From NCBI GenBank assembly GCA_001898935.1, contig MKVT01000034.1:124001-188000 (forward strand): a stretch of DNA of 64,000 nucleotides, written 5' to 3'. Under the pieces are notes generated by a model. That model was given only the letters and a program-made list of their open reading frames with translations, made no database searches and was not told the DNA's origin. Source of the stretch: Paludibacter sp. 47-17 (GTDB taxonomy: Bacteria > Bacteroidota > Bacteroidia > Bacteroidales > Paludibacteraceae). Positions 30,457 to 51,070 of this stretch are shown here, in pieces (positions within the stretch are counted from its first letter, which is position 1; the number at the start of each line of letters is the position of its first letter). Position numbers and translations under genes: made by a program.

Positions 30457-31125
30457 ATGAAGAAAAGAGATCTCAACGCTTGTCCCATCTGCCACAATTT
30501 AAACATTGACGACGAGGAAGCATTTCTCGACGATTTAAAATGTACCTTCAGGGTATACGCCAAAAACGACCTGATTATTCAACAAGGGCAATTGTGTGAA
30601 GCGTTTTATATGCTTACCATTGGTAGCGTTCGAACTGAAATGGTTTCTGAAAACGGGAATATCATGGGTATTGAAACGATTGAGGCTCCAAAACCAATTG
30701 CGGCAGCACTCCTTTTTTCCGACAACAACCGTTTTCAGTTTAATGTAATTGCCTTAGATGATGTAGAAATTATTGTGATTCCTAAATCCGAAATTATGCG
30801 CATGATGATGACGAATCCTGATTTCATGCAAAATTATCTTGCTCATAATGCCAATCGAACGCAAGTTCTTACCAGCAGACTGCAGTTATTGTCGATTAAA
30901 ACAATCAAAGGTAAGCTGGCTCATTATTTATTGGAACAGGCAAAAAACACCGACAAGCCCTTTACGGTATCAAAAACTCAAAGCGAACTGGCTGAATTCT
31001 TCAGTGTCGCCCGCCCTTCATTGGCCCGCAGCTTGTCGGAAATGGTGCAGGATGGCATTATTTCAATTCATCGTAAAGTGTATACCATTATCGATCTGAA
31101 TAAAATGAAAGAGTTATTAGTTTAA
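30457..31125 (+). CDS. Crp/Fnr family transcription regulator (cupin/antiporter locus)
   Basis: 222 residues. An N-terminal cyclic-nucleotide-binding-like domain spans about residues 20-140 (LIIQQGQLCEAFYMLTIGSVRTEM). The long dimer helix is near residues 125-150. The C-terminal helix-turn-helix is SKTQSELAEFFSVARPSLARSLSEMV. The N-terminus has a CPIC pair (Cys9, Cys12); a metal or redox role is possible, but the four Cys of FNR are not all evident. The recognition helix (RPSLAR) differs from FNR (ETxSR), so a different DNA site is expected, such as the palindrome just upstream. The antiporter gene follows after 21 bases. Confidence 0.88.
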   Translation: MKKRDLNACPICHNLNIDDEEAFLDDLKCTFRVYAKNDLIIQQGQLCEAFYMLTIGSVRTEMVSENGNIMGIETIEAPKPIAAALLFSDNNRFQFNVIALDDVEIIVIPKSEIMRMMMTNPDFMQNYLAHNANRTQVLTSRLQLLSIKTIKGKLAHYLLEQAKNTDKPFTVSKTQSELAEFFSVARPSLARSLSEMVQDGIISIHRKVYTIIDLNKMKELLV

Positions 31126-31146
31126 CCTCAATTCTGAAAACGGAGC

Positions 31147-33294
31147 ATGAATCTATTACTAATCAACGATTTCACCTTACCACTGCAACATCCGGTACTG
31201 AAGTTTCTGGTGATACTTGTCATCATCCTTTTTGCGCCCATTATTTTCAACAAACTTAAAATACCCCATATATTAGGTTTGATTATTGCGGGAGCAATCA
31301 TCGGTCCCTTTGGTATCAATTTGCTTCAGCGCGACGGCAGTATCATTCTTTCGGGAACTGCCGGGCTTTTGTATATCATGTTTCTTGCCGGGTTGGAAAT
31401 CGATATGGGAGATTTGAAAAAAAACAGCACCAAAAGCTTAATTTACGGTTTACTGACCTTCATCATCCCTATGCTTTCCGGTATTCTCGCCGGTGTTTAT
31501 CTGCTGAATTTTTCTCTTCCCACCTCCATACTGATTGGAAGTATGTTTGCTTCACATACCTTAATTACCTACCCAATAGTAACTAAACTCGATATTGTTA
31601 AAAACCGGGCTGTAGTGGTTACGGTTGGGGGGACTATTATTACAGTCACGCTGGGATTACTGGTTTTGGCTGTCATTATCGGCATGCAATCCGGGGAGGT
31701 GGATTCCTGGTTCTGGACACGGCTTTCGGGTTCAATCGTCCTGTTCAGCGCCATTGTATTATTACTTTTTCCGTTCATCGGCCGTTGGTTTTTTAAAAAG
31801 TATTCCGATAGTGTTTCTCAATACATCTTTGTACTGGTAATGGTTTTTTTAGGTGCGGTTCTTGCACAGGCTGCCGGCGTCGAATCGATCATCGGAGCAT
31901 TTCTGGCCGGACTTTCCCTGAATCGTTTGATACCGGTCACATCGCCCTTAATGAACCGCATCTCATTTGTCGGCAATGCTATTTTCATTCCGTTTTTTCT
32001 GATTAGCGTCGGGATGCTCATTGATTACAGAGCATTCTTCAACGACACGCATACATTATATGTCGCAGCTATTTTGTCGGCCGCAGCAACATTCTCAAAA
32101 TACCTTCCCGCATTGATTACTCAAAAGATGTATGGCTACACCAAAGACGAAGGTAATTTGATTTTCGGATTAAGCAACGCTCAGGCCGCAGCAACCCTGG
32201 CTGCCGTATTGGTAGGCTATAATGTTATCACCGGCTATGCGGCCGATGGCAGCCCCATTCGATTGCTCGACGATAGTGTATTGAACGGTACGATTGTCAT
32301 GATCCTCGTCACCTGTACCATTGCATCGCTGGTAACTCAAAAGGCTGCTGTCAACTTATCGCTCAAAGATAGCACTAACGCTGAACCGCACGATTCGGAT
32401 GGCACCGAACAGATTCTCGTCCCTATTAAGTATGCCGACACAATTGATGAATTAATTAATCTCAGCTCGTTAATAAAGTCAAAACATAATCTCGACGGCA
32501 TTCATGCTTTAAACGTAATCAGTAATAATACAACCAACGATACCGACTTAAAAAAAGCCAATCAACTGTTGGATAAAGCGGTCAAAAATGCTTCGTCGGT
32601 GGATATTCGGATGAACAAATTACTGCGTTACGATGTAAATGTTGTGAATGCAATCACCAGCGTGATACGGGAGCACTCCATCACCGACCTGATCGTATCG
32701 CTTCATACGAAGAAAGGAATGACCGATTCGTTTCTCGGTAAACTGACCGAAGGTATTTTGACGCGAAACAATGTAACGACCTTTGTATACAAAGCCGCCC
32801 AGCCCATCTCTACCATTAAGCGTCACATCGTAGTGATACCCAAAAATGCAGAAGTAGAAATAGGCTTTCCCTTTTGGTTACTTAAAGTGTGGAATATTGC
32901 CCGCAATGCAGGCGCCACAGTCGAATTTTACGGACAGGAGAAAACCATCGGACTTATTCAGGAAGTAATGTCAAAACACCCTATTGAAGCCAGTTTTAAT
33001 AACTTCGACGATTGGGACGATTTTTTGATTTTATCACGCGACATTCGTCCTGACGATAACCTCATTATAATACTTGCCAGGGAAAAAACAATGTCGTATC
33101 ACTCCAGCATGCAACGTATCCCCGTTTATTTACGAAAATACTTTGAAAATCAAAGTTACATACTGATATTCCCTATACAAACCGGGATCTTATCCGACGA
33201 TCATGATAACTTCAACAATCCTTCCATGCTCGAACCCATTGAAAAGCTGGACGAAATGGGGAAAACCCTGGCCCGGTTGTTTAAAAGAAAATAG
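31147..33294 (+). CDS. Cation:proton antiporter (CPA2/KefB type) with C-terminal UspA-like domain
   Basis: 715 residues. About 12 membrane segments lie in residues 10-410, with the CPA2 fold (KIPHILGLIIAGAIIGPFGI near the start and GAFLAGLSLNRL in the middle). The soluble C-terminal half (about 420-715) looks like two UspA-type segments, e.g. HIVVIPKNAEVEIGFPF. It probably exchanges Na+ or K+ for H+ and is regulated by the cytosolic domain. It is likely co-transcribed with the Crp/Fnr gene upstream. Its TAG stop abuts the hisA stop from the other strand without any gap. Confidence 0.88.
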   Translation: MNLLLINDFTLPLQHPVLKFLVILVIILFAPIIFNKLKIPHILGLIIAGAIIGPFGINLLQRDGSIILSGTAGLLYIMFLAGLEIDMGDLKKNSTKSLIYGLLTFIIPMLSGILAGVYLLNFSLPTSILIGSMFASHTLITYPIVTKLDIVKNRAVVVTVGGTIITVTLGLLVLAVIIGMQSGEVDSWFWTRLSGSIVLFSAIVLLLFPFIGRWFFKKYSDSVSQYIFVLVMVFLGAVLAQAAGVESIIGAFLAGLSLNRLIPVTSPLMNRISFVGNAIFIPFFLISVGMLIDYRAFFNDTHTLYVAAILSAAATFSKYLPALITQKMYGYTKDEGNLIFGLSNAQAAATLAAVLVGYNVITGYAADGSPIRLLDDSVLNGTIVMILVTCTIASLVTQKAAVNLSLKDSTNAEPHDSDGTEQILVPIKYADTIDELINLSSLIKSKHNLDGIHALNVISNNTTNDTDLKKANQLLDKAVKNASSVDIRMNKLLRYDVNVVNAITSVIREHSITDLIVSLHTKKGMTDSFLGKLTEGILTRNNVTTFVYKAAQPISTIKRHIVVIPKNAEVEIGFPFWLLKVWNIARNAGATVEFYGQEKTIGLIQEVMSKHPIEASFNNFDDWDDFLILSRDIRPDDNLIIILAREKTMSYHSSMQRIPVYLRKYFENQSYILIFPIQTGILSDDHDNFNNPSMLEPIEKLDEMGKTLARLFKRK

Positions 33295-35679: not shown

Positions 35680-35681
35680 TA

Positions 35682-35717
35682 AAACGCCATTTCGTTCAGA
35701 GCAACGAAATGGCGTTT
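35682..35717. terminator. Bidirectional terminator of GHL10 gene and sulfur operon
   Basis: Perfect 15-bp stem (35682-35696 with 35703-35717) and a six-base loop CAGAGC, between convergent genes. A/T pairs at the base of the stem serve as the U tract in each direction. Confidence 0.85.
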
Positions 35718-35740
35718 CGGCTTTTCATAGCGAATCATTA

Positions 35741-36154
35741 TCAGATATTGATGTGTAAATCGGCTTTTTGAGCGGCTTCAATGTATTGAAAAATTCCACT
35801 GAAATCGTCTACTACATCAATAAATTGTTCTTTGGTAACCCCATCCCACATCTTGCCGGCAAGCGAACAAATAAAGAATTTACAATCGGTAAACTCTTTT
35901 ACCTGACGAAACGAGTCGGCCCAATGCTGAACGTCCAACTCTTTCATTTTCGCAAGCATCTGCGCTTTCAAGTGTGGATATTCAACAAAAGAATCGTTGA
36001 TAAACTCATTTTCTTTCAAGAATGCCCTTGCTGCCGTAAGCAGCACATACACTTCAATTTCCATATCGTCGGCGGCAGCCCCACTGAGCATTACGCCTAA
36101 ACCGACTAATTTGTCGATACTTCCGGATGACAATCCGACAACTAATTTTGCCAT
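35741..36154 (-). CDS. DsrE-family sulfur-transfer protein
   Basis: 137 residues, no signal peptide, so cytoplasmic. MAKLVVGLSSGSIDKLVGLGVMLSGAAAD and the C-terminal half FTDCKFFICSLAGKMWDGVTKEQF match the DsrE/DsrE2-like fold. The Cys in KFFIC sits where this group carries its persulfide-accepting residue. DsrE proteins accept sulfur from TusA-like carriers, and rhd-tusA-dsrE2 clusters are known from sulfur oxidisers. It is the last gene of the eight-gene operon that starts with tusA, 25 bases after the preceding rhodanese gene. Confidence 0.78.
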   Translation of the reverse strand: MAKLVVGLSSGSIDKLVGLGVMLSGAAADDMEIEVYVLLTAARAFLKENEFINDSFVEYPHLKAQMLAKMKELDVQHWADSFRQVKEFTDCKFFICSLAGKMWDGVTKEQFIDVVDDFSGIFQYIEAAQKADLHINI

Positions 36155-36179
36155 TTACAGTTCATTTAAAATGTTAGAA

Positions 36180-36677
36180 TTATCCACCACACCCTCCCGA
36201 AGGAGCTGCCGCTGCTTTTTTAATTGCACCGCGTACCGGCGACTGCTCAACCAATTCGGGATACAATTGCTGCCAGGCGTCAAAGCCACCATCAATAAGT
36301 TGTACGTTGGTGTATTTTAATCGGGGCAATACCGTTGCAGCCAATGCCGAACGTTGTCCGTTATCGCAGTAAATATATACCGCAACGCGTTTTTTAGGTG
36401 CCTGATCCGCAATCTCATTCTCCAAAACACCCCGTGGGACTGAGATGGCCCCCTTAATGCAGGCTATATCAAACTCTTCGGATTCGCGACAATCGATCAG
36501 ATAAAAATGCTTCTCTGATTCTAAAACCGCTTTGAAATCGGCCGGACTAATTATATCGACCTTCGACCGGGCAGCTTCTGTCATTTCTTCAACACCGGCA
36601 TATATTTTCGTATCGTTGCTTCCGCAGGAGGCAAGTCCCGCAAGAAGCACCAGCAAAGAAATAAATTTTACGTTCAT
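36180..36677 (-). CDS. Rhodanese lipoprotein with SoxY-like GGCGG C-terminus
   Basis: 165 residues. Lipobox LASC gives lipidation at Cys18. The rhodanese domain covers about residues 40-145: YLIDCRESEEFD, GAISVPRGVLENEI, and the active-site loop YCDNGQRS with catalytic Cys104. An Ala/Pro-rich tail then ends exactly in GGCGG (Cys163). SoxY carries its sulfur intermediate on the Cys of a C-terminal GGCGG arm. The same ending on a rhodanese suggests that this protein loads sulfur from Cys104 to its own mobile arm, or presents it to a partner (inference). Predicted location: periplasmic face of a membrane. It sits between the tandem rhodanese and the DsrE genes. Confidence 0.85.
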   Translation of the reverse strand: MNVKFISLLVLLAGLASCGSNDTKIYAGVEEMTEAARSKVDIISPADFKAVLESEKHFYLIDCRESEEFDIACIKGAISVPRGVLENEIADQAPKKRVAVYIYCDNGQRSALAATVLPRLKYTNVQLIDGGFDAWQQLYPELVEQSPVRGAIKKAAAAPSGGCGG

Positions 36678-36690
36678 GATTTTTTATTGT

Positions 36691-37473
36691 TTAATGATTC
36701 CAGTCAACCCATGCTCCCTCATATACCTTAACATTCGGGTAATTTAAGATCGATTTCATTACAAAGTAGGTAAAACCTGCAGTAACTCCGGTTTTGCAAT
36801 AAATAATCACTTCTTTGTCCTTCGGGACGGCTGCAAACAACTTGGCAAGTTCAGTGGCAGGTTTCAGCTTCGAACCTGTCAGCATATCGTCGCTTGGAAC
36901 ACTGATCGCATTTCCGATTTTACCGGCAGCATAATCTTCTTTCTTGCGGGAATCGACTAATACGGCCGTATTTATTTTACTCTTCACATAAGCTTTATCT
37001 GCATTTATGGCTGCATTGACAGCCGGAGTAAACGTAGTAGCAGTTAATTTCTTAGGATTTTTAGTAATGGGTTTCCGGGCAGCAAACCACGCGTCCATTT
37101 GTCCATCGAGCATACTTACATCGGAAACACCCAGGTATTTTAAAATCCAGTATACACGACCGGCATTGACTCCTGTTTTGCAATATACCACTATTTTTGA
37201 ATTTCGGGCCACACCATGACTGCCCATAATTTTTGCCAACTCGGCCGCAGGTTTCAGGCTACCTTCAACCGGAGTTGCATTACAAAGTGTAGATGCGTCG
37301 ATATTGATCGCACCGTCGATATGTGTTTTCATATAATCGCCTGCCGGACGGGCATCGATCACTATTACCGCCGGATCTTTAACCATTTTCGCCAAGTCGT
37401 CGACACTTACCAATTGTGCACTAACCGACATTACAGCCAGTACAACCAGTATTAAACCAATCATTTTTTTCAT
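36691..37473 (-). CDS. Exported tandem rhodanese (thiosulfate sulfurtransferase-like)
   Basis: 260 residues with a cleavable signal peptide (MKKMIGLILVVLAVMSVSAQ). Two rhodanese domains follow. The first has VIVIDARPAGDYMKTHIDGAINI and the active loop YCKTGVNAGR. The second has VLVDSRKKEDYAAGKIGNAISVP and YCKTGVTAGF. Unlike classical two-domain rhodaneses, where only the C-terminal domain keeps Cys, both loops here have Cys. It should transfer sulfane sulfur in the periplasm. Gaps of 12-13 bases to both neighbours place it firmly in the operon. Confidence 0.9.
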   Translation of the reverse strand: MKKMIGLILVVLAVMSVSAQLVSVDDLAKMVKDPAVIVIDARPAGDYMKTHIDGAINIDASTLCNATPVEGSLKPAAELAKIMGSHGVARNSKIVVYCKTGVNAGRVYWILKYLGVSDVSMLDGQMDAWFAARKPITKNPKKLTATTFTPAVNAAINADKAYVKSKINTAVLVDSRKKEDYAAGKIGNAISVPSDDMLTGSKLKPATELAKLFAAVPKDKEVIIYCKTGVTAGFTYFVMKSILNYPNVKVYEGAWVDWNH

Positions 37474-37485
37474 TTTCGTTCCATT

Positions 37486-38562
37486 TTAAAATTTTGCCTG
37501 TAACTGTACCATGATCATATCGTTCATCACACCGGCCGATTCGGCGACATTCACATAATTTACCTGTACTCTTGAATAATCGTTGACATAATAGTTGATA
37601 CCGATGGTAGTGTAATTGGTGCGTTTCCCGGCCACTGCGACATCAGAATTATAGGTATCGAACTTGAGCACCGGCTCCAGGCTCCAGGGAGTCATATACG
37701 AGGCCATGACCACAAAACCATCTTTGGTATAACTACCAGCAGTTTTTGTTTCATAACCCACTATACCGCCACAACCACCATACACAGGCACACGCGATGC
37801 AGAATGCAATTGATCTATCCCCCGAATATATTCACCCTGAAGGAATAAATCGCCAAGTTTATAGTGTACTTCGCCCCCAAAACGATAAATATCATTCATC
37901 TTCTGGGCCAGATCCGTAGGATTAATCTTGCCTACATTAAAACTTCCCCCGACAGTAAGACCAGCGAAAGGATGAAGAAGAATACGCCCTACGATATTTT
38001 TATTACGGTTGTCGTCTTCGACATTCATTCCGGTTCCATTCATAATTCCAAGGCTATATTGCAGGAGAGTAGTATCGCTACCTCCGCTGATCAACAGTCC
38101 CATATCCCGCTGAGGACCGGCCAGTTGATTGACAACTTCGGAACGATTAATGGTGTATAATCCCGAACATGAGGTATTTTGCTCCATGCTAAACGGAGAT
38201 TTAAACTGCCCCAGCGTCAACTTAGCCCACCGGCTGAACCGGGTATACGACACATAGGCATCGAGTAGATGCACATTCTTTTGCTGCGTTTTAAAACTAC
38301 TGAATTCCGCTACAAAATAATAATCAATATCGTAAGGAATGGATCCCATTACCCCCAACCGGGCACGATTGAAGGTAAAATTATTTGTATTTAAACTATT
38401 ACCATTTGCATCGGTACCGTTCAGATTGAAGTTATATTGAGGTTGAATAAACCCGGAAACTCCTATTAAATCGCTTCCTCCACCCATACAGCCCTGACCG
38501 GCCACGGGCAACACCAACAGCAAGCCAGCTATTGCTGTTAAAACAATTCTTATTTTTTTCAT
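37486..38562 (-). CDS. OprO/OprP-type outer-membrane porin
   Basis: 358 residues. Signal peptide up to about residue 22 (LLVLPVAGQ). The mature part starts with CMGGGSDLIGVSGFIQPQYNFNLNG and continues with amphipathic strands typical of phosphate-selective porin O/P family barrels: FTFNRARLGVMGSIPYDIDYYFVAEF, LTLGQFKSPFSME, and the C-terminal Phe in VQLQAKF. In this operon it is the obvious candidate for taking up an inorganic sulfur anion such as thiosulfate (inference; OprO/P members select anions). The mature N-terminus also carries a Cys next to three Gly, which may be coincidence. Confidence 0.85.
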   Translation of the reverse strand: MKKIRIVLTAIAGLLLVLPVAGQGCMGGGSDLIGVSGFIQPQYNFNLNGTDANGNSLNTNNFTFNRARLGVMGSIPYDIDYYFVAEFSSFKTQQKNVHLLDAYVSYTRFSRWAKLTLGQFKSPFSMEQNTSCSGLYTINRSEVVNQLAGPQRDMGLLISGGSDTTLLQYSLGIMNGTGMNVEDDNRNKNIVGRILLHPFAGLTVGGSFNVGKINPTDLAQKMNDIYRFGGEVHYKLGDLFLQGEYIRGIDQLHSASRVPVYGGCGGIVGYETKTAGSYTKDGFVVMASYMTPWSLEPVLKFDTYNSDVAVAGKRTNYTTIGINYYVNDYSRVQVNYVNVAESAGVMNDMIMVQLQAKF

Positions 38563-38626
38563 TATTACTTATTGATAGAAGCAGGCCCGTTGTATTTCAA
38601 CCGGCCCGCTTCATGAATGATTCGTT

Positions 38627-39604
38627 TTAATTACCTGTCACTACCGGATAATTCCCTACATTGGCAGCCGACCATTTGTTGGCTTTCAATGTAGAATTGA
38701 TTAATGCATTCGCTCCAAAACCTATACTTTTGGCATTAGTGTATCCCAAAACAGTCAGATAGGCAGAAACCAGCGCCGATGTCTGGCCTGTCCAGCAATA
38801 GGTGATGATGGTCGCGTCAGGATCAAGATTTTTGAAACCGTCGGCTGCCAGGGTCAGCGTTTCGTTTACGCGGTAGGCGCCTTTAATATGACCGTGATCG
38901 TTTACATTCGTATTCGTCCAGTAATTGTTAATAAAATAATTGGTTGGAGTGGTAAGCACATCTTCTGCTTTTACCGACATGGCCGCATACCCCTTGGCCA
39001 GCATTACAGCTACTCTTTCTTTCAAAATACCGGCGCCCGTAGTATCGTTTGCTTCAAATGCCGGTAAAGTAAAGTTCACCGAAGGTACAATAGCATTGGT
39101 AGTCGACCAATTGGCATGATTCAGCGCACGGTCGGAGATATTGGCTGTCCAGCGATCAAACTGGGGGGCCCATGAACTCATTCCCCATTTCAGGATTTTA
39201 CAGGTCGGATGGCCACTCAATCGCAGGGCCACATGGCCCAGGGCGGCGGTCTGACCTGTATAACAAGCGACTACAATAGGTTTCGAACCTGCATTTTTAG
39301 CCATTTCAACAATATTGGGTAAGGTCGTATTAATGGCACCCTGTATATGACCGGTTGCAAAATCGGCTGCCGAACGTAAATCGATTATGTAAAAGTTGGT
39401 TGGCGCCGCTGCAACATCTTTAGCATCGATGGTCCATTGCGATGTCATATGGTTCAGATCCAAATTGTTGGCTTTCATATAATCGGTCATTTTTTTAAAA
39501 TGATCAATTTTTACTTCCTCTACCGGGTCGATACACGATGTGAGACCAAAGGAAAAAACTAAAACTGACAAAATCAGTGTTTTGAATAAAATTGTGGTTT
39601 TCAT
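38627..39604 (-). CDS. Tandem rhodanese lipoprotein
   Basis: 325 residues from ATG 39604; an in-frame upstream extension overlaps the previous gene's end and is not used. Lipobox GLTSC gives a lipidated Cys near residue 23. Two rhodanese domains: YIIDLRSAADFATGHIQGAINT with loop ACYTGQTAALG, and NNYWTN..HGHIKGAYRVNE with loop YCWTGQTSAL. Both catalytic Cys are present. CxTGQTxA loops differ from the CKTGV loops of the other tandem rhodanese, so the two probably have different sulfur donors or acceptors. It is membrane-anchored in the periplasm, between the porin and the Cys-less rhodanese gene. Confidence 0.88.
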   Translation of the reverse strand: MKTTILFKTLILSVLVFSFGLTSCIDPVEEVKIDHFKKMTDYMKANNLDLNHMTSQWTIDAKDVAAAPTNFYIIDLRSAADFATGHIQGAINTTLPNIVEMAKNAGSKPIVVACYTGQTAALGHVALRLSGHPTCKILKWGMSSWAPQFDRWTANISDRALNHANWSTTNAIVPSVNFTLPAFEANDTTGAGILKERVAVMLAKGYAAMSVKAEDVLTTPTNYFINNYWTNTNVNDHGHIKGAYRVNETLTLAADGFKNLDPDATIITYCWTGQTSALVSAYLTVLGYTNAKSIGFGANALINSTLKANKWSAANVGNYPVVTGN

Positions 39605-39641
39605 AAAATATTTATTTTTAAAAGGTGTTTGAAGTGAAAAA

Positions 39642-40127
39642 TCAACCTCCGCATCCGGCACCCGGGGTTACAGCTACGGCATTCGGGTCTTGATGGGGAT
39701 TAAATGCAGTATAGCCGCCTTCCAGGTTGTAGACATTGGTATAACCTAATTGCATAAGAGTTTTGGCGGCTAAAATCCCCAATGCTCCATCTGAACTGTA
39801 TAGAATAATTTCCGATTTTTTTTCGGGAGGATAAATGTATTGCTCCGACCAGAATCCTGCATCCCCGATTTTAAATTCCAAGATACCTCTCGGAATCGAT
39901 ACCGAACCGGGAATATTGGAGGTATAGTAGTCGGACGGCTGACGGATATCGATGAGATAATAGTCTCCTCCGGTATCAATTTTAGTCTGTAATGTTTTTA
40001 CTGAAAGCTGGTTAATATCCGATCTGCAATCAGCAGCCATCTCTCCGCCATTCTCGTAAATGCCCCGGCAGGAATAAAATTGCCCGGTCAGCACGAGTAA
40101 CATAATCAATTGAATTATCTTTTTCAT
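39642..40127 (-). CDS. Degenerate rhodanese lipoprotein with GAGCGG C-terminus
   Basis: 161 residues. Lipobox FYSC (Cys20). The rhodanese fold is clear (YYLIDIRQPSDYYTSNIPGSVSIPRGILEF...TNVYNLEGGYTAF). However, the catalytic loop reads LYSSDGALG where its paralogue at 36180 has IYCDNGQRS, so the active Cys is Ser111. The C-terminus ends GAGCGG with Cys159. It therefore looks like a carrier that has kept a SoxY-like terminal Cys but cannot act as a rhodanese itself. It directly follows the permease (12 bases) and could be the docking partner that hands sulfur to it (inference). Confidence 0.85.
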   Translation of the reverse strand: MKKIIQLIMLLVLTGQFYSCRGIYENGGEMAADCRSDINQLSVKTLQTKIDTGGDYYLIDIRQPSDYYTSNIPGSVSIPRGILEFKIGDAGFWSEQYIYPPEKKSEIILYSSDGALGILAAKTLMQLGYTNVYNLEGGYTAFNPHQDPNAVAVTPGAGCGG

Positions 40128-40139
40128 GGGTTCTACTTA

Positions 40140-41348
40140 TTAAAATGCACTGAATTTACCGGTACGCTCATTCCACTTCACAAACCAATACCAAAGGCCC
40201 AGTAATACGACGATCAGCAGAAAAGCACCATCATATCCCAGGTAATCGGGAAGATAATGACGGAATTTTGCACTTTGAGGCAAAACACCGTCGACCAGTG
40301 GTACGAGAAATTTTGAAGAAAGAGGCATAAACAAGACCATGGCCAGTGCCGAAAACCATAATTTAATCTGTCCCTCGCCTACTCTCCAGAGCGTTCCTAC
40401 CGCGCAGCCTCCCGCCACCGTCATCCCGACTCCGAAAACAAAACCGCCTATTCCGGCTTTGGCCCAGAAATGCGGAAAAACCCAGGTAAGTTCGCGGGCT
40501 CGTAAACCGGCCTCACCCATCGCGCCAATTCCAAAGTATTTAATAACGGTAAAGCCTATCAAACTTACCAGTAAACCGGCAATTACACCTACTGATCCCT
40601 GAGATTCGCCACTCATGAACGGATCTCTGAAGGATTTCACAATACAGAAACGAGAACGTTGCGAAATCAGTCCCATCAATCCGGCAATAAGAATGAACCA
40701 GGTCATGACCGGGTTAGATTTCGCATAAGCGTACGACAGTACTATCACACCCAGCACAACCACCATTCCAACATAAATCTGCCACTGCCCCTTACCCGGT
40801 CCGGCGGCAAGATAGGTATAACTTTTGCCCGAACTCCAGCCCGGTTTATTCTCCATTTCCCATATCAGGTATTTCAGTGCTAATATCACTCCTATAAACA
40901 TACCTGCTGTGAAAATCAAAGCTCCACCCGACAAGGCAGGAACTCCACTGAAAAAGGAGCCGATCGAACAGCCAATACCTACAGTGGCTCCGACTGCCAT
41001 CAGCGCTCCGCCTAAAAAACCTTTGATCATTTCCCCCCGGGGAGGCACACGTAAAGCAAACTCCTTTGAAAACAATGCTCCGGCAAACGATCCCAGCACA
41101 ATAAGCACTACCAGCATACCATAATTATTCTGACTAACGGGTACTACTGCTTCGCCGAAAATTCCGGTCACCGAGTACAGGTTATCGCCTACATTGGTTA
41201 AGCCGCCACTAGCACCCCAGGGACTTTTGATGGCAAACAACAGGATATTAAGCAGCCCCAGTACAATGCCGCCTACCCAAACCGGCCAGTGTTTACCAAA
41301 AAAGGTATTGAACAACTCCAGCAACGGATGTTTTTCTTCCGATGACAT
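40140..41348 (-). CDS. YeeE/YedE family permease (thiosulfate transporter TsuA-like)
   Basis: 402 residues from ATG 41348; earlier in-frame codons would overlap tusA. About ten membrane segments arranged as two YeeE/YedE halves. Three Cys-containing motifs: GATVGIGCSIGSFFSG, SRFCIVKSFRDP and VAGGCAVGTLWRVGEG. Such Cys are known in the thiosulfate transporter YeeE/TsuA to contact the substrate. Gene fusion or adjacency of YeeE with a TusA-like protein is also common. An alternative is selenium transport, since YedE-SirA pairs also appear in selenium-using bacteria. It is the second gene of the operon, 11 bases after tusA. Confidence 0.9.
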   Translation of the reverse strand: MSSEEKHPLLELFNTFFGKHWPVWVGGIVLGLLNILLFAIKSPWGASGGLTNVGDNLYSVTGIFGEAVVPVSQNNYGMLVVLIVLGSFAGALFSKEFALRVPPRGEMIKGFLGGALMAVGATVGIGCSIGSFFSGVPALSGGALIFTAGMFIGVILALKYLIWEMENKPGWSSGKSYTYLAAGPGKGQWQIYVGMVVVLGVIVLSYAYAKSNPVMTWFILIAGLMGLISQRSRFCIVKSFRDPFMSGESQGSVGVIAGLLVSLIGFTVIKYFGIGAMGEAGLRARELTWVFPHFWAKAGIGGFVFGVGMTVAGGCAVGTLWRVGEGQIKLWFSALAMVLFMPLSSKFLVPLVDGVLPQSAKFRHYLPDYLGYDGAFLLIVVLLGLWYWFVKWNERTGKFSAF

Positions 41349-41359
41349 TACTTTCCCTC

Positions 41360-41590
41360 CTATGCTTTTTTCACTAACATACGGTTCACTCCACCTTCCA
41401 GATCGGAGATCCCGAGGCATTCGTTTCCAGTCTTGGCGCACCAGCTCGGCAAATCGGTTTTGGTTCCCGGATCGGTGCCGAAAACTTCCAGTACTTCTCC
41501 TGACTTAAGCTCTTTCATTGCTTTTGCAATTTTCATCATGGGCATTGGGCACGACAGGCCTTTACAATCTAAGGTCATTTTGATTTCCAT
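41360..41590 (-). CDS. tusA: TusA/SirA-family sulfur carrier
   Basis: 76 residues from ATG 41590. CKGLSCPMPMMKIAKAMKEL contains the CPxP motif whose first Cys carries the persulfide. The rest (GEVLEVFGTDPGTKTDLPSWCAKTGNE) follows the TusA fold, including the second common Cys. It is the first gene of the eight-gene operon. TusA-like proteins pass sulfur from permeases or rhodaneses to cytoplasmic acceptors. ATG 41578 is an alternative start. Confidence 0.92.
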   Translation of the reverse strand: MEIKMTLDCKGLSCPMPMMKIAKAMKELKSGEVLEVFGTDPGTKTDLPSWCAKTGNECLGISDLEGGVNRMLVKKA

Positions 41591-41622: not shown

Positions 41623-41653
41623 CAAAGATTGTGATATTTTGCACAGCCACAAT
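41623..41653 (-). promoter_or_regulatory. Candidate promoter of the sulfur operon
   Basis: Minus strand ATTG (41650-41653), a 19-base spacer, then AATCTTTG (41623-41630), one mismatch from TAnnTTTG in each box. The tusA ATG is 33 bases downstream. Confidence 0.5.
41630..41645. promoter_or_regulatory. CRP-type half-site pair in the sulfur operon promoter
   Basis: TGTGATATTTTGCACA: TGTGA, six bases, then GCACA, one mismatch from a perfect TGTGA-N6-TCACA site. It lies between the -33 and -7 boxes of the sulfur operon, a place where binding would block RNA polymerase. Confidence 0.45.
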
Positions 41654-41770: not shown

Positions 41771-42466
41771 ATGAAAAGAGAAGAATCGACGAATAGTTGC
41801 ACGCTGAATACAGCAGTTGAAAATTGTTTTCAAACACTGACGGATGATGAAATGTTGTTGTTGGAAAACAATCTGGTAGTCGTAAACTATAAAAAGGGTG
41901 AAATCCTTTGCAAACAAGGAACTTTAGCCTCACATATCATGTATATTTGCAATGGCCTAGTCAAAATATACATGGAGAGTGAGGCCGGGAGCTTAATTCT
42001 GAAGGTATTACCGGCGGGTAATCTGATCGGTTTATCGGCTTTGCTCGATAATAATAATATTTTCCGTTATTCGGCGTATGCTTATCAGGATTGCAAATTA
42101 CGCCTTATCGATATCCGGGTTTTCAAGCAGTTGATCCGGCAAAACAACAGTTTTGCCAATCAGGTAATCAATTTGTTATGCGAAAATCAGATTCAGACAC
42201 AAACGCGTTTTTTTGCATTTACACAAAAACAATCGTTTGGAAGAATTGCCGATACGCTGATGTGTTTGTCGAACAATATTTTTAAAATGGATGAATTCGA
42301 ATTACCCTTGTCGCGCAAAGAACTGGCCGAATTAACCGGTTTGACCCCCGAAAGCGTGATTCGTATCTTATCCAAGTTTAAAAATGATCGGGTAATCGAA
42401 ATTGACGGAAAAGTGTTTAAAATTATAAACAAAAAAAAATTGCAACAAATTAGTGAATATGGATAA
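41771..42466 (+). CDS. Crp/Fnr family regulator divergent from the sulfur operon
   Basis: 231 residues. Cyclic-nucleotide-binding-like domain at about residues 30-145 (YKKGEILCKQGTLASHIMYICNGLVKIYM) and C-terminal HTH SRKELAELTGLTPESVIRILSKF. The recognition helix keeps the Glu and Arg used by FNR (E..IR) but not the Ser, consistent with a TGAT-like half site. Cys residues occur near 10, 19, 47 and 60; an Fe-S or thiol-based sensor is possible but not shown. It is divergent from the sulfur operon across 180 bases that hold an FNR-like box and a CRP-like site, so it probably controls both. It overlaps mscS by 8 bases. Confidence 0.88.
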   Translation: MKREESTNSCTLNTAVENCFQTLTDDEMLLLENNLVVVNYKKGEILCKQGTLASHIMYICNGLVKIYMESEAGSLILKVLPAGNLIGLSALLDNNNIFRYSAYAYQDCKLRLIDIRVFKQLIRQNNSFANQVINLLCENQIQTQTRFFAFTQKQSFGRIADTLMCLSNNIFKMDEFELPLSRKELAELTGLTPESVIRILSKFKNDRVIEIDGKVFKIINKKKLQQISEYG

Positions 42467-45024: not shown

Positions 45025-45669
45025 ATGACTACAAAAGATCGCTATAAACACATCATTGCCTGGTTTGAAGAACACGTTCCGGTAGCCGAAACTGAATTGC
45101 ACCACGAAGATCCGTTTCAATTATTGGTCGCCGTGATTCTTTCGGCACAATGCACCGATAAACGGGTAAACATGGTCACTCCCGCTCTGTTCAAAGACTT
45201 TCCTACTGCCGAAGTGATGGCCGAGGCATCTCCTGAAGTACTTTTCGAATATATCAAATCGATTTCTTATCCGAACAATAAATCGAAGCATTTAGCCGGT
45301 ATGGCACGCAAACTCAGGGATGAATTCGGAGGAATAGTGCCCGAATCGATTGAAGAGTTGCAAAAACTGCCGGGGGTAGGACGCAAAACCGCCAATGTAA
45401 TCGCATCGGTCATTTACAACCAGCCAGCCATGGCTGTGGATACGCATGTATTCCGGGTAGCCGAGCGACTTGGCCTCACCACACATTCAAAAACTCCCCT
45501 GCAAACCGAATTAACACTCGTCAAGCACATCCCCGAGCATCTCATTCCCCGTGCACACCATTGGCTCATTTTGCATGGCCGCTATATATGCCAGGCCCGC
45601 AAACCCCTGTGCGAGGAATGCGGGCTCCGCCCCTGGTGCCGGATGTATCAGAAAAACGTTCGTTCGTAA
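45025..45669 (+). CDS. nth: Endonuclease III
   Basis: Base-excision repair glycosylase/AP lyase for oxidised pyrimidines. 214 residues. LLVAVILSAQCTDKRVNMVTPALF near residue 30, helix-hairpin-helix LPGVGRKTANVI with catalytic Lys, and VDTHVFRVAERLG with catalytic Asp. The C-terminal [4Fe-4S] cluster is ICQARKPLCEECGLRPWC (Cx6Cx2Cx5C). It is coupled to the FecCD permease gene and overlaps the convergent hydA gene by 22 bases. Confidence 0.97.
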   Translation: MTTKDRYKHIIAWFEEHVPVAETELHHEDPFQLLVAVILSAQCTDKRVNMVTPALFKDFPTAEVMAEASPEVLFEYIKSISYPNNKSKHLAGMARKLRDEFGGIVPESIEELQKLPGVGRKTANVIASVIYNQPAMAVDTHVFRVAERLGLTTHSKTPLQTELTLVKHIPEHLIPRAHHWLILHGRYICQARKPLCEECGLRPWCRMYQKNVRS

Positions 45670-47408
45670 TACTTCGTATGCAATAAATGATGCGAAAGAT
45701 CGCCGAGCGGTTCTTTCAAAAAATGATCGTAAAGATAAACGATTTCAGGATTCTCGTGCGATTTCCGGATGAATTTATGTGCATCTTCCGCATAGATCGA
45801 TTCGGCCCGTTTCCGACGAATCTCCTGATTCGTCGGAATGGGTTGCCCACCGCCTCCCAGGCAGCCCCCCGGACAAGTCATCACTTCAATAAACGCATAG
45901 GGAGAACTACCTTCTTCCACTTCTTCCAGCAATTTCCGTGCATTTGCAAGCGTATGCGCCACCGCCACCCTGATAGGGGTACCGTTTAAATCGATTTCGG
46001 CTTCACGAATTCCCTGAACACCACGAATACTTTTAAAATTCACATCGGGTAAGGTCTGTCCGGTATACACTTCATAAGCCGTGCGAAGAGCAGCTTCCAT
46101 AACACCGCCTGTGGCACCGAAAATCACAGCTGCGCCAGTGGAAGTACCCAGCGGATTATCAAATTCCTCCTCGGGTAACTGAATGAAATCAATTCCGGTT
46201 TCCTGAAACATGCGCCCCAGTTCGCGGGTAGTCAGCACATAATCCACATCAAAGAAACGATCGTTGGCATCAAGCTTCATTTTATCTTTCCAATATTCAA
46301 ACGCTCCATCCATTTCGGGTCGCTGAGCTTCGTACTTTTTAGCGGTACACGGCATCACCGACACTACGACCATGTTACGCGGATCGAGGTTCGTTTTTTC
46401 GGCATAATAGGTTTTAGCAATAGCTCCGAACATTTGCTGAGGCGACTTACAGCTGGAAAGATGTGGTAACGACGCGGGGAAAAAATGCTCGATAAACTTG
46501 ATCCATCCCGGCGAGCAGGAAGTAATCATCGGCAAACGGCCCCCGTTCTTAAGCCGGTGCAACAATTCGTTACCTTCTTCGATAATGGTGAGGTCGGCCG
46601 CAAAATCGGTGTCGAACACCTTCGAAAATCCCAGCCGACGCAAACCTGCCACCATTTTACCGGTTACCAGGCTGCCATAAGGCATACCCATCGCCTCTCC
46701 TATCCCTACTCTGACGGCCGGTGCCGTTTGTACAATCACCACCTTGTCGGGATCATGAATAGCCCTCCACACAGCAGGTACGTGATCTTTTTCGGTGATA
46801 GCACCGGTGGGACAAACCAACGCACACTGTCCGCAATTGGTACAAGCCACTACACCCAATCCCATCTCCATAAACGTTGAAATCTTGCTTCTCAACCCCC
46901 TGCCTGCAAAATCGATGGCTTTTACCGTCTGCATTTCACTGCATACAGCCACACAGCGTCCGCAAAGAATACATTTATCCGGATCACGTACCAGCGAAAA
47001 CGACGTATCGTCCTTTACCTGCGACACGGGTTTGGTACGCGGGAAACGCCGCTCCCGGATTCCGAATTCATAGGCGACGGTTTGTAGCTCGCAATGCTGA
47101 TTCCGGTCGCAGGTAAGACAATTATCGGGATGATTGGCCAGCAATAGTTCCACATTCATTTTCCGGGCCGACTGAATACGGGCACTCTGAGTTGTAATCT
47201 CCATGCCTTCAGCAGCTCGAGTGACACAGGAGCGCAACAGATTTCGAGCACCCTTCACTTCGACTACACACAGGCCACAGGACGCATTGGCCGAAACATC
47301 TTTCAGGTAACAAAGCGATGGGATTTTCACGCCGGCATAGCGGCATGCTTCCATAACAGTAAGTCCATCAGGAACTTCGGTTGCTATTGAATTTATTTTT
47401 AGTCGCAT
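45648..47408 (-). CDS. hydA: [FeFe] hydrogenase catalytic subunit HydA
   Basis: 586 residues. N-terminal [2Fe-2S] domain (Cys33, 44, 47, 61). His-ligated [4Fe-4S] motif (His93, Cys97, Cys100, Cys106). Two [4Fe-4S] motifs (Cys146/149/152/156 and Cys189/192/195/199). H-cluster motifs are all intact: TSCSPGW (Cys298), MPCTAKKYE (Cys354) and EVMTCPGGCLGGGGQP (Cys512, Cys516). The architecture matches the multimeric, bifurcating-type (A3) hydrogenases that use NADH and reduced ferredoxin together. No HydE/F/G maturases are in the window. It is the third gene of hydC-hydB/gltD-hydA, 12 bases after the fusion gene. Confidence 0.97.
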   Translation of the reverse strand: MRLKINSIATEVPDGLTVMEACRYAGVKIPSLCYLKDVSANASCGLCVVEVKGARNLLRSCVTRAAEGMEITTQSARIQSARKMNVELLLANHPDNCLTCDRNQHCELQTVAYEFGIRERRFPRTKPVSQVKDDTSFSLVRDPDKCILCGRCVAVCSEMQTVKAIDFAGRGLRSKISTFMEMGLGVVACTNCGQCALVCPTGAITEKDHVPAVWRAIHDPDKVVIVQTAPAVRVGIGEAMGMPYGSLVTGKMVAGLRRLGFSKVFDTDFAADLTIIEEGNELLHRLKNGGRLPMITSCSPGWIKFIEHFFPASLPHLSSCKSPQQMFGAIAKTYYAEKTNLDPRNMVVVSVMPCTAKKYEAQRPEMDGAFEYWKDKMKLDANDRFFDVDYVLTTRELGRMFQETGIDFIQLPEEEFDNPLGTSTGAAVIFGATGGVMEAALRTAYEVYTGQTLPDVNFKSIRGVQGIREAEIDLNGTPIRVAVAHTLANARKLLEEVEEGSSPYAFIEVMTCPGGCLGGGGQPIPTNQEIRRKRAESIYAEDAHKFIRKSHENPEIVYLYDHFLKEPLGDLSHHLLHTKYYERTFF

Positions 47409-47420
47409 GGTTATTATAAT

Positions 47421-50400
47421 TTAAAGGTGAACATCACATCGCAGACAACGATTTACCTCGGCACGCGCCTGCAACCCGGTGTATCCGCCATCTACTTCCA
47501 GGAAGTTCCGGTTACGATCTTTCACTGCCAGTTTGTAACTAACATTCTTTGGCGTTTTAACCGGATGAGGCGGAATTGTATTCCGGTAGACAAATCTCCG
47601 GAAAAGTCGATCGAATCGTTTTTGTCCCATTAAATATTCATCGATCGATGCAGCAGCCTTTTTTGCCATCCCCATCGCTTCGGCAGCCGTTGATGGTCCG
47701 GTAACGGCATCACCTCCTGCAAACACCTTGGGGAGGTTGGTTTGACCGGTAAAGGCGTTTATTTCAACTGTACCCGATCGACCTGTACTGATTTCGTCCA
47801 CTATGCTGTTGTCCACTCCCTCACCAATAGCCACCACTACAGCATCACAATCCAGGCGATCGAACTTTCCGGTAGCAATGGGTTTCCGGCGGCCCGACGC
47901 ATCGATACCTCCACAGGTCATCAACTCTATTTTCAGCCCCCGAACACGCCCCGCTGCATTAACAAGCACTTCCACCGGAGCCGACATAAACCGGAACTGA
48001 ATCTGTTCGGCTTCCGATTCGGCAATTTCGCTATGATTAGCAGGCATGGAACATTTGTCGCGTCGATAAACAATGGTAACCTCTTTGCCATAGCGCCATA
48101 AACTACGGGCAGCATCGATGGCAACATTACCGGCACCAACGACAGCCACTCTCCGGCCCATTTCCGGAAGCCTGCCTTCGGACAGTTGCCTTAAAAGCTC
48201 CGTCCCCGGAAAAACACCTTCAGCCTCCTCGCCGGGAATATTCAAGGGCAGTTCCTTCCAGGCACCAAATGCCAGGTACACAGCGTCAAAATCTCCTTTC
48301 AGCTCATGAAGCCGGAAGTCGGTCCCCAACCGTTTGCCCATCTCAAAACGAGCCCCCAGGCGTGCGATAAGCTCGGTTTCCTTATCGAGCACCTGGTGGG
48401 GCAAACGGTACTGAGGAATGCCGTAACGCAACACGCCGCCCGGTTTTTCGAACGCATCGTATATAGTAACGTCGTGACCCAGCCTCAGCAGGTAAAATGC
48501 CGCCGTCAGCCCGGCCGGTCCCGCTCCTACGATGGCAATTCGTTTGCCGGTCGAAGGTAGCTTTTCGTCCAGCAGTTTCTTGTAAATACGCTCCTCGTTG
48601 CCCAACTTATACATGGTATCGGCCAGGTAACGGTGCACCTCGCCCTGTGCCACCGGTTCGTCGAGCATATCGCGCCGGCAACGCATCTGGCAATGAAAAT
48701 GACAAATGCGCCCTATAGTACCCGGAAGCGGATTATCGCGTAAGGTAAGTTCAAAGGCATCCTCAATACGATCTTCCTTGATGAGTTCAATATAACCGGG
48801 AATATTCATGTGCATCGGGCACGAATTCTCACACAAGGCCATGAACAGACGTTCGCACACACCGGCATGACAGCGTTTTTCGATGATATGTTCCTCGTAT
48901 TCGTGGCGGAAATAACGTAAGGTCGTCAGTATCGGATTCGGTGCCGTTTGTCCGAGTCCACACAAAGCCGTATCTTTTATCGTACTGCTCAGCAGTTCCA
49001 ACATATTCAGGTCCGCCATCGTTCCCTGTCCGTTGCAGATACGAGTAAGCACAGCCAGTGCCTGCGATAACCCTTCACGACAAGGCGTACATTTCCCACA
49101 GGATTCAGCGGAGTTGAACTCCAGAAAATACCGGGCCACATCTACCATGCAGTTGTCCTGATCCATCACCACCATGCCACCCGAACCCATAATGGCTCCC
49201 AGCGAAGCCAGCGATTCATAATCCACAGCTGCTTTGAAATGAGCGGCCGGAATACAACCTCCCGACGGGCCACCCGTTTGTACCGCTTTAACACGTTTGG
49301 AAGTTCCGGTGCCTTCGCCAATATCGTACACGAACTGCTCCAGGCTGGTGCCCAATGGAACTTCAACCAAACCGGTATTTTTCACTTTACCGACGAGCGA
49401 GAATACCTTGGTACCCGGACTCTTCTCGGTGCCTGTCTGCAAAAACCAACCACTTCCTTTTTCAATGATCAGCGGTATATTGCACCAGGTTTCAACATTA
49501 TTGATATTGGTAGGACAGCCGTATAATCCTTTGGCGGCAGGATAAGGCGGGCGGGGCGCCGGGCGGCCGGCACGACCTTCGACAGACGCAATCAGAGCCG
49601 TTTCTTCCCCACAAACGAAGGCGCCGGCACCTTCCACTACCTCACACCGGAAACTAAAGCCCGAATTCATAATATTATCACCCATCAACCCCCGTGCTGC
49701 CGCTTGCTCGATAGCTAGTTTAAAGCGTTGTACAGCCAGCGGATATTCGGCGCGTACATAAGCTATCCCCAGGCTGGCTCCCATGGCATAGGCGCCAATC
49801 ATCATCCCTTCCAGCACCGAATGCGGATCGCTTTCAATTTCGTTGCGATTCATATAAGCTCCGGGATCTCCTTCGTCGGCATTGCATATAATGTACTTCT
49901 GAGGAGCCTGTTGTTGTAACATCAGCGACCATTTCACTCCGGTCGGAAAACCCGCACCTCCCCTTCCCCGCATTTTTGCAGCCGTCACTTCTTCAACAAC
50001 ATCGGCCGGACGCATCCCCTCCAACACATGCGCCAGCGAACGATAACCACCTATGGCAATATAGTCGTCGATACTCTCCGGATTGATAAAGCCTGCGTTG
50101 CGCAACACCAGTTTCTTCTGACCCTTGAAAAACGCCAGATCGTTCCACACCGGAATATTTCCGGGCGCTTTTCCATACTCAAAAAAAGCGGTATGATGAT
50201 CCCATTCCGGAATGCTGCATAAGATATGCCGCCGGTAAAACCTACCCTCGGCAAGCGAATCGAGCACCTGCTTTGCTATTTTCAGATTCACACGCCCGTA
50301 AACACGTAATGCCTCGCCGGGTAAATAAGCGATCACCAACGGTTCTGCAGCGCAAAATCCGAAACAACCTACAGGCTTGAGTTCAACGGCCAGCTTCCGG

Positions 50401-50549: not shown

Positions 50550-50560
50550 GGCAATAAGTA

Positions 50561-51070
50561 TTAAAGTTTCTGATGCGAAAGTGTACGGAGAATCTTCAGC
50601 AACTGTTGAGCATTTACATAACTGTGAATAACCCCATCCACCGATACCACCGGCGATTGTGCACATTGACCAAAACAAGCCACCGTACGGATGGTGTATT
50701 CGTTATCGGGAGTAGTAAACGAAGGTTCTCCCTCGCCGGGATCGTACTGAAATCCCAGAATATGTCCCACATCGTTGAGCAATGCCCGTGAGCCTTTGGT
50801 ATGGCAGGCGGTACCGCGGCACACAATAATCGTATGCCGGCCCTGTGGTTTCAGGTTGAAAAACGAATAAAATGTTGCAACGCTGTACACCTGAGTCAGG
50901 GGTATATTCATTTTGCGCGACACAGCTGCTAAAGTTTCCGGCGGAAGAAATTTTAAGGGATTGGCCTCCTGAGCTTCTTCAAGTGCCGAGAGTAAATTGC
51001 CCGGCTTTCCGCGATACTTCTCAACAATGCTGTCGAGTACGGTATCTTCAAGTATCTGTACTGAAATCAT
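50561..51070 (-). CDS. hydC: NuoE-like [2Fe-2S] subunit HydC
   Basis: 169 residues of the thioredoxin-fold ferredoxin family. [2Fe-2S] ligands lie in CRGTACHTKGS and CFGQCAQSPVVSVDG. PLTQVYSVATFYSFFNLKPQG is the family core signature. It is the first gene of the hydrogenase operon, with 11 bases to hydB. No convincing promoter box was found in the 97 bases between it and the groEL terminator. Confidence 0.95.
   Translation of the reverse strand: MISVQILEDTVLDSIVEKYRGKPGNLLSALEEAQEANPLKFLPPETLAAVSRKMNIPLTQVYSVATFYSFFNLKPQGRHTIIVCRGTACHTKGSRALLNDVGHILGFQYDPGEGEPSFTTPDNEYTIRTVACFGQCAQSPVVSVDGVIHSYVNAQQLLKILRTLSHQKL

Follow-up and report, generated by a model that had tools for sequence, protein, structure and literature searches.

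We describe an operon that probably encodes a relay for sulfane sulfur, leading from the cell surface to the cytoplasm, in Paludibacter, which is a fermenter. The operon occupies positions 35741 to 41590, on the minus strand, of a 64,000-nucleotide stretch of Paludibacter sp. 47-17 (assembly GCA_001898935.1, contig MKVT01000034.1, positions 124,001 to 188,000), which as a whole is referred to here as the window. From its 5' end it encodes a TusA-type sulfur carrier, a YeeE/YedE-type permease, the rhodanese-fold proteins RhdA and RhdB, a porin, the rhodaneses RhdC and RhdD, and a DsrE-fold protein. Our reading draws above all on a cysteine-bearing arm found on the single-domain rhodaneses, on an export signal found on RhdB, and on a gene order that recurs in other genomes.

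Results

The eight open reading frames (ORFs) are separated by successive gaps of 11, 12, 37, 64, 12, 13 and 25 bases, the starts of tusA (41590), yeeE (41348) and rhdB (39604) having been picked by eye, the latter two as the most likely ATG. Pfam matches above cut-off were obtained to TusA, Sulf_transp, Rhodanese and Porin_O_P, with one Rhodanese domain each in RhdA and RhdD and two each in RhdB and RhdC. Signal peptides, as read from the sequence, are of the lipoprotein type in RhdA, RhdB and RhdD and of the signal-peptidase-I type in RhdC. The original prediction, made from the letters of the window, had proposed a minus-strand operon of eight genes with gaps of 11-64 bases, and the coordinates, the Pfam families and the shared order in related loci confirm this. 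The four exported rhodanese-fold proteins and the OprO/P-like porin that it named are likewise borne out by Pfam domains, signal peptides and a structural match to OprP, and the DsrE-family assignment holds up through profile, model and homologue matches. The synteny that it suggested looking for across Bacteroidetes is conserved in Bacteroidota, and some loci that bear labels of other phyla show it too.

Related loci were collected by a pattern scan for RhdB relatives in one genome per species (84,980 species), which found 505 stretches, of which the best 80 were kept; counts of loci given below for arms, active sites, export signals, partners and the porin tree refer to the window and these 80 (L044-L123). 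Because the loci were picked by likeness to RhdB, the presence of RhdB is by construction and it is the other genes that constitute the finding. All eight genes occur in the order of the window in nine of the 80 loci (L044, L047, L048, L049, L052, L054, L056, L057 and L067, by tblastn). A script count placed a porin gene directly after RhdB in 67 of the 71 loci with room for one; by map, the porin is also present in L046 and L052 and is absent from L086 and L092. An RhdC-type rhodanese follows the porin in 57 of 61 loci, and in 36 of the 52 loci with room a divergent gene of the CRP type is found no more than 5 kb upstream of rhdB. In L086 and L092, both labelled Neomarinimicrobiota, the porin-less RhdB relative sits within a long co-directional set of other genes.

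Around this core the partners vary. YeeE, PsrA or an octaheme tetrathionate reductase is present in 52/80 loci, with full-length YeeE in 26, split YeeE in 7, PsrA in 13 and the octaheme tetrathionate reductase in 15; HdrA-type genes occur in 18 loci and an ExtM-like cytochrome in 4. Each partner family was named from one representative (Pfam, NCBIfam), of which the octaheme protein scored above its cut-off (579.6 vs 375 bits) and the PhsA/PsrA-type protein below (437.2 vs 694 bits), while the small protein adjoining the HdrA genes was of the DsrE2 type (PF13686). When the four partner labels were mapped onto a porin tree of 70 rows, no fewer than 19 changes were required, compared with an average of 37.8 over 200 shuffles, not one of which came as low; truncated contigs inflate the label 'none' in this count. 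The partners therefore appear to be partly inherited, yet repeatedly exchanged. Near some rhodanese-porin cores we also observed a protein in which a cytochrome b is joined to an ExtM-like multihaem part (L077:573-3299, with the same family in L034, L088, L104 and L123); it scores 225 bits to ExtM, where the cut-off is 800, and offers a link to the Ext clusters of Geobacter.

The hosts are mostly titled as Bacteroidota, among them Paludibacter, Draconibacterium, Marinifilum, Ancylomarina, Labilibaculum, Cyclobacteriaceae and Flavobacterium. Some loci are titled Chlorobi(ota), Calditrichaeota, Neomarinimicrobiota, Cloacimonadota, Eisenbacteria and, once, Dehalococcoidia, although such labels on metagenome-assembled genomes (MAGs) may be wrong. 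The nearest named locus, L044, is a Paludibacter MAG whose RhdB is 81% identical. We also searched a sample of 60 genomes, made up of the window's own (G000), 35 congeners and 24 further members of the order. RhdB was found at E < 1e-100 in two congeners, G002 and G026, and relatives at E <= 6e-23 in 8 genomes belonging to other families, whatever else matched being weak and rhodanese-like; YeeE of the window type occurs only in G000, G002 and G026, plus G030, where it is cut by a contig end. The operon is thus accessory within the genus. Its GC content (0.42-0.45) is not distinct from that of its surroundings, so the patchy presence is the sole hint of transfer.

The original prediction had described RhdA as a rhodanese without cysteine. 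Its active-site cysteine is indeed replaced (YSSDG), but the protein ends in ...PGAGCGG, a C-terminal cysteine arm that had been missed, and RhdD ends in SGGCGG. We searched 5.8 billion proteins with RhdD residues 30-145, a query that stops short of the tail. Among the 89 matches, the best 54, a clade that includes the window's own protein, all have a cysteine in the last six residues and 52 of them end in CGG, compared with 0/35 of the other rhodaneses having a tail cysteine. When the octaheme-linked RhdA of Marinifilum breve was the query, 87 of 95 matches ended in GGC, the armless ones being 3 of the 90 clade members and all 5 of the most remote matches. Across the 80 loci, a cysteine falls in the last four residues of 75/84 complete short rhodaneses and of 0/143 tandem ones; 73 of these 75 are flanked by Gly or Gly-like residues, and the other two (tails CC and ACWE) are probably chance. 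With near-copies dropped and the window included, the contrast stands at 70/79 against 0/136.

The region preceding the arm varies in sequence and contains many E, A, K, P, G and S residues, as would be expected of a flexible linker. By automatic alignment, the active-site position is S, G, D or A instead of Cys in 19 of 77 armed proteins, RhdA of the window among them, which suggests that the arm can outlive the active site. For RhdA, then, the arm cysteine is a candidate for the reactive residue.

RhdB differs from the armed lipoproteins at its N-terminus. Surface lipoproteins of Bacteroidetes carry an N-terminal export signal, K-(D/E)2 or Q-A-(D/E)2 (PMC5080379; see also PMC6222051); statements resting on papers cited here by PMC number refer to the portions of those papers on which we drew. 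The mean number of acidic residues at positions +2 to +7 is 2.78 in RhdB, about 1 in the armed lipoproteins and 0.89 in other lipoproteins of the loci, and three or more such residues occur in 51/78, 0/66 and 4/89 of these groups, respectively. For the strict K(D/E)2 form the counts are 36/78, 0/66 and 1/89. From these differences, the probable location is outside for RhdB and inside for the armed carriers. The original prediction had placed the rhodaneses in the periplasm, which on these predictions would hold for the armed carriers and not for RhdB. In some armed proteins of the PsrABC type the N-terminus is, by eye, simply hydrophobic and might serve as an inner-membrane anchor. In fourteen loci (L062, L071, L075, L077, L081, L082, L087, L095, L096, L098, L099, L101, L105 and L122) the RhdB ORF is about 620-640 residues long, and RhdB seems to hold an extra half in Marinifilum and some of the other loci.

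The best match of the porin's predicted structure is OprP (2o4v). Across 57 sequences of the family two cysteines never vary: Cys25, close to the N-terminus of the mature protein, and Cys132, which falls in the long loop that joins strands 5 and 6. A third, Cys264, sits in a GGCG turn and is kept in at least 90% of them; the loop positions are read from strand order only. To our knowledge, conserved cysteines are unusual in porins.

The original prediction had called the permease thiosulfate-type, and it does have the three cysteines of the thiosulfate channel TsuA: the columns are kept in 29/29, 29/29 and 28/29 sequences, the last with one gap, in a set that holds two contigs twice (L031 is the same contig as L056, and L032 the same as L047). 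Two of these cysteines lie within TsuA-aligned segments at matching GGC/GC motifs and the third in an RxRFC/RxRIC motif. The halves of the protein are, however, in swapped order relative to TsuA (6leo), whose residues 2-112 align to 217-337 of the query and 238-312 to 74-147. NCBIfam scores against TsuA and TsuB are far below cut-off (91.4 vs 400, 81 vs 645 and 21.7 vs 147.5). The permease aligns end to end with the YedE/FdhT model, again far below the cut-off, its scores against YedE family models being 117.7 vs 350 and 43.1 vs 200 bits.

For the DsrE protein of the window no Pfam or NCBIfam match of its own was found. Its family profile matches the DsrE-type structures 2qs7 and 3pnx, its AlphaFold model matches 2qs7, 3pnx and the DsrEFH structure 2hy5, and PF13686 is found on many homologues; the cysteine motif of the CSLAGK form is matched by 115/120 homologues among the matches listed. 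Elsewhere in the genome lies a separate cluster, DsrE2-TusA-MvhD-HdrA-HdrA-(93 aa)-QmoC (G000:C8; L127:4066-9926), which in several relatives is beside or near the operon. Clusters of this type are a possible quinone-linked sulfur complex in Bacteroidales.

Marker searches bear on what the genome could do with the sulfur. We found no dsrA match (TIGR02064) at E <= 0.001 in G000, G026 or G002, nor in G000 any related one, with 8/14 controls matched and none of them over cut-off; oxidation based on Dsr is thus unlikely in G000, and we set aside Dsr-based oxidation or disproportionation. PsrA was not matched in G000, in a search that did match its positive control genome. Searches for SoxY (PF13501) in four genomes and for the octaheme reductase in G000 were empty, and the controls likewise gave nothing. 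No SelD above cut-off was found in G000 (71.4 vs 125 bits), which is 99.98% complete, or in G002 and G026, the other genomes of the genus sample holding both RhdB and YeeE; SelD exceeds the cut-off in 13/60 genomes and 2/14 controls.

A CRP-type dyad, TGTKA-N6-TMACA, corresponding to the usual CRP/FNR half-sites, occurs exactly in 16 of the 46 gaps, counted without redundancy, that separate the CRP gene from the module, and in 1/167 control gaps (shuffle mean 0.17); the pattern was derived from the same regions in which it was then counted, the control gaps having played no part in choosing it. With one mismatch allowed it is found in 20/46 CRP-linked and 13/167 control gaps (shuffle mean 3.88). 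A pattern scan for internal terminators and promoters gave 7 terminator-like sites (shuffle mean 6.4, standard deviation 2.6) and 23 promoter-like sites (15.8, standard deviation 3.9), so that a transcript end within the operon is unsupported. The hairpin 3' of dsrE was found by folding and is absent from the pattern-scan terminator list. Gaps of 40-200 nt between rhdB and the porin gene fold strongly (z <= -3, with 30 base shuffles each) in 33/42 cases, compared with 45/177 unrelated co-directional gaps, and one guess is that such hairpins set unequal amounts of RhdB and porin. The features of the operon are collected in Table 1.

Table 1. Genes and sites of the operon and its upstream region, with positions in the window.
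Feature	Positions	Strand	Evidence
tusA, cytoplasmic TusA-type sulfur carrier, 76 aa, LSCPMP	41360..41590	-	PF01206 87.5 bits, above cut-off; NCBIfam TusA 52.8 bits, below cut-off 78
yeeE/yedE, inner-membrane sulfur permease, 402 aa, halves swapped relative to TsuA, three conserved Cys	40140..41348	-	PF04143 173.5 bits
rhdA, single-domain rhodanese lipoprotein, active-site Cys absent, C-terminal GAGCGG arm	39642..40127	-	PF00581 54.2 bits; sequence; arm statistics
rhdB, tandem rhodanese lipoprotein, acidic N-terminus CIDPVEE	38627..39604	-	Active-site cysteines C114 and C270 invariant in 8 aligned sequences; export-signal statistics
rhdB-porin gap, strong RNA hairpin without T-run	38563..38626	-	-25.5 kcal/mol, z -6.8
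OprO/P-family porin, 16 strands by own count	37486..38562	-	PF07396 82.6 bits; model pLDDT (predicted local distance difference test) 89.8; best PDB match OprP 2o4v
rhdC, secreted tandem rhodanese, two active-site Cys, armless	36691..37473	-	PF00581 127.8 bits in two stretches; sequence
rhdD, single-domain rhodanese lipoprotein, active-site Cys and C-terminal SGGCGG arm	36180..36677	-	PF00581 69.2 bits; clade arm count
dsrE, cytoplasmic DsrE-fold protein, conserved Cys96 (CSLAGK)	35741..36154	-	Profile, model and conservation matches
Terminator-like 16-bp hairpin 3' of dsrE, 3' arm ending TTTTATTAT	35681..35718	-	-24.5 kcal/mol, z -6.3
CRP/FNR-family regulator, divergent	41771..42466	+	PF00027 and PF13545
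CRP-type dyad TGTGCAAAATATCACA, one mismatch to TGTKA-N6-TMACA, 39 bp ahead of the tusA start	41630..41645	.	Pattern count

Two neighbouring regions were read by eye. The minus-strand cluster at 45648-51070 reads as HydA of an [FeFe] hydrogenase, a long protein of the NuoF type (ORF of 1085 aa) that is followed by a flavin domain resembling that of glutamate synthase, and a NuoE-type protein, and looks like a fused electron-bifurcating hydrogenase. At 30457-33294 a second CRP-type gene is followed by a cation/proton antiporter-like gene.

Discussion

Of the readings considered, a sulfane-sulfur relay from the surface to the cytoplasm is the one that we think probable. An envelope-to-cytoplasm relay had been the core of the original prediction and is still the best reading, now with synteny behind it; what has changed are the arms, the site of RhdB, the nature of the permease and the standing of selenium. 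From the features described above we infer its substrate, direction, chemistry, order of hand-over and sink as follows. RhdB, anchored on the outer surface, would take a sulfane sulfur atom from polysulfide, tetrathionate, thiosulfate or elemental sulfur, and the OprP-type porin would pass an anion or a small persulfide carrier, its loop cysteines perhaps binding sulfur during passage. RhdC, free in the periplasm, would hand the sulfur to RhdA and RhdD, whose GGCGG arm may, in the manner of SoxY, bear it in persulfide form and present it to the three-cysteine channel of YeeE/YedE. TusA would receive the sulfur on the cytoplasmic side and then give it to DsrE. The separate DsrE2-TusA-MvhD-HdrA-HdrA-QmoC cluster offers a plausible sink; there the persulfide could be reduced (or oxidised) and electrons exchanged with the quinone pool. 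With neither Dsr nor Psr matched in the genome, the sulfur may be an electron sink, by way of an Hdr/Qmo-like complex, or a source of sulfur. The inward direction is suggested by the surface signal of RhdB, by the swapping of YeeE with Psr- and octaheme-type reductases, and by the import role of YeeE relatives, which import thiosulfate or raise cellular sulfane sulfur (PMC11582611).

Several findings weigh against this reading. The strict export signal is absent in 42/78 RhdB proteins, including that of the window, which is acidic and lacks the K. Nine of the 84 short rhodaneses in the loci have no arm, and in L045, L046, L067 and L107 an armless RhdA stands beside YeeE; in the first three of these the active site is, by eye, altered as well. 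The dyad of the window has one mismatch, at which stringency the contrast with control gaps is weaker. No recognised partner was seen in 25/80 loci, partly owing to contig ends. Lastly, the Hdr marker MvhD is high-scoring in 26/35 congeners, 23 of which are without an operon-type YeeE. Such co-occurrence says little for any dependence of the operon on the Hdr cluster, an idea that we do not retain; as MvhD is common in the genus, the cluster is a plausible sink and not a dedicated partner.

The strongest of the rival explanations, which we nevertheless consider unlikely, is that the operon is a dedicated uptake system for thiosulfate of the TsuA/TsuB type, in which thiosulfate would pass intact through the porin and YeeE and be split on TusA, the rhodaneses only converting other sulfur species to thiosulfate. 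The three TsuA cysteines of the permease and its TusA partner fit such a system, as does the porin, OprP being an anion (phosphate) channel according to the title of 2o4v. Against this, the scores lie far below the TsuA/TsuB cut-offs and the permease halves are swapped, and thiosulfate uptake would leave unexplained the six rhodanese domains, the carrier arms and the pairing of the core with PsrABC or an octaheme reductase elsewhere.

Less probable again is an outward or protective role, with sulfane sulfur or cyanide detoxified in the envelope while YeeE and TusA balance cytoplasmic persulfide. Rhodaneses can detoxify both cyanide and sulfane sulfur, which is a point in favour of protection. 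Some carriers, moreover, come from sulfidic sites: Zodletone spring, by the isolate names Zod and ZodW (PMC9040765), and the Black Sea in the case of the genus Ancylomarina (PMC11129491). A surface-anchored rhodanese and the linkage to reductases are a better fit to use of external sulfur, however, and an enzyme for cyanide or sulfide oxidation is absent from the operon.

We regard as very improbable a role in selenite or tellurite reduction like that of Geobacter ExtHI, or in selenium uptake like that of YedE/YedF: RhdC does match the ExtH model (65.1 bits) and the porin that of ExtI (67.1 bits), and an ExtM/ExtP-like cytochrome occurs in 4/80 loci, but the scores are below the curated cut-offs of 200 and 150, the operon has no cytochrome, the partners elsewhere are enzymes of the sulfur-oxyanion and polysulfide type, and SelD is below its cut-off in all three genomes with RhdB and YeeE, which counts against assimilation though not against selenite reduction. 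The selenium alternative of the original prediction is accordingly abandoned for assimilation, which the SelD score makes unlikely in G000.

The pieces of the operon are of known kinds, and their combination comes nearest to YTD, SoxYZ-SoxT, ExtHI and Sud-Psr, from each of which it departs in a defining feature. YTD likewise has a YedE-type permease, TusA and a DsrE-fold protein in one operon, a likeness at the level of family, and in the window dsrE does not adjoin the other two. It has been read as yeeE-tusA-dsrEFH type II, in 985 genomes of 20 phyla (PMC13293266), and the complete cluster is described only from Desulfobacterota and Nitrospirota (PMC12998232). The window has a single DsrE instead of the DsrE/Chp1/Chp2 triple; the two or three Chp genes of YTD, which we read as DsrEFH type II subunits, do not occur in it, and the gaps of the operon leave no room for them on its strand. 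Four exported rhodaneses and a porin stand in between, and of the reductive dsrAB that usually accompanies YTD no dsrA match was found in the window genome.

In the SoxYZ-SoxT system a cysteine in the C-terminal GGCGG of SoxY carries periplasmic sulfur and a YeeE-like transporter is thought to import it (PMC6067878, PMC11582611). In the window the arm sits instead on a rhodanese-fold lipoprotein, RhdA and RhdD matching only Rhodanese in Pfam. TsuA/TsuB (YeeE/YeeD) shares the three-cysteine permease adjoining a TusA-like protein and differs in the order of the permease halves, in the low scores and in lacking the extra envelope proteins, whereas YedE/YedF of selenium metabolism is set apart by the SelD and YedE-model scores below cut-off in the window genome. 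The extHIJKLMNOPQS cluster of Geobacter also has the gene for an exported rhodanese lipoprotein (ExtH) adjoining that for a porin of the OprP Pfam family (ExtI) (PMC6148476, PMC5877670), but our operon is without multihaem cytochromes, falls below the ExtH/ExtI cut-offs and has more rhodaneses, with arms. Membership in YTD, TsuA, YedE/YedF or ExtHI was therefore rejected, a defining feature of each being absent.

In the polysulfide respiration of Wolinella, Sud, a periplasmic rhodanese, feeds sulfane sulfur to Psr, a membrane sulfur enzyme. The RhdA/RhdD profile matches PDB 1qxn ('sulfide dehydrogenase'), which we take to be Sud, at 7.4e-9, and PsrA-type genes occur in 13/80 related loci; PsrA is, however, not matched in the window genome, and the relay of the window would start at the surface and has arms. 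Octaheme tetrathionate reductases have been reported from 73 Zodletone sediment genomes, and some related loci carry Zodletone-type isolate names, the operon itself not being described in the portions of that paper drawn on (PMC9040765). Rhodanese genes are noted in Ancylomarina and Labilibaculum, the cluster again not being described in those portions (PMC11129491), and a loose precedent is found in Dethiobacter, where rhodanese genes cluster with octaheme cytochromes (PMC10376724). We found no description of rhodaneses with GGCGG or GGC arms, or of the core of surface rhodanese, porin and RhdC, in the one open-access library searched, subscription journals being mostly outside this coverage.

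More tentatively, and with somewhat less than even confidence, we propose that these loci form a class of envelope sulfur relay, in which an exchangeable core (a rhodanese at the surface, an OprP-type porin with cysteines and a tandem rhodanese in the periplasm) is linked by rhodaneses with SoxY-like arms, apparently of an origin independent of SoxY, to whichever inner-membrane machine the host has, be it YeeE-TusA, Psr or an octaheme reductase. How zero-valent and sulfane sulfur pass through two membranes is poorly understood, and the family offers a parts list with testable cysteines, with related loci in named strains of Marinifilum, Ancylomarina and Flavobacterium and in many MAGs. If the proposal is right, Bacteroidota and neighbouring phyla could draw sulfane sulfur straight from outside the cell, a large group of anaerobes would join the users of intermediate sulfur, and a second fold would be shown to have gained a sulfur-carrying arm. 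The ExtHI pair of Geobacter, at present regarded as part of an electron or selenite conduit, may then itself be a sulfur device.

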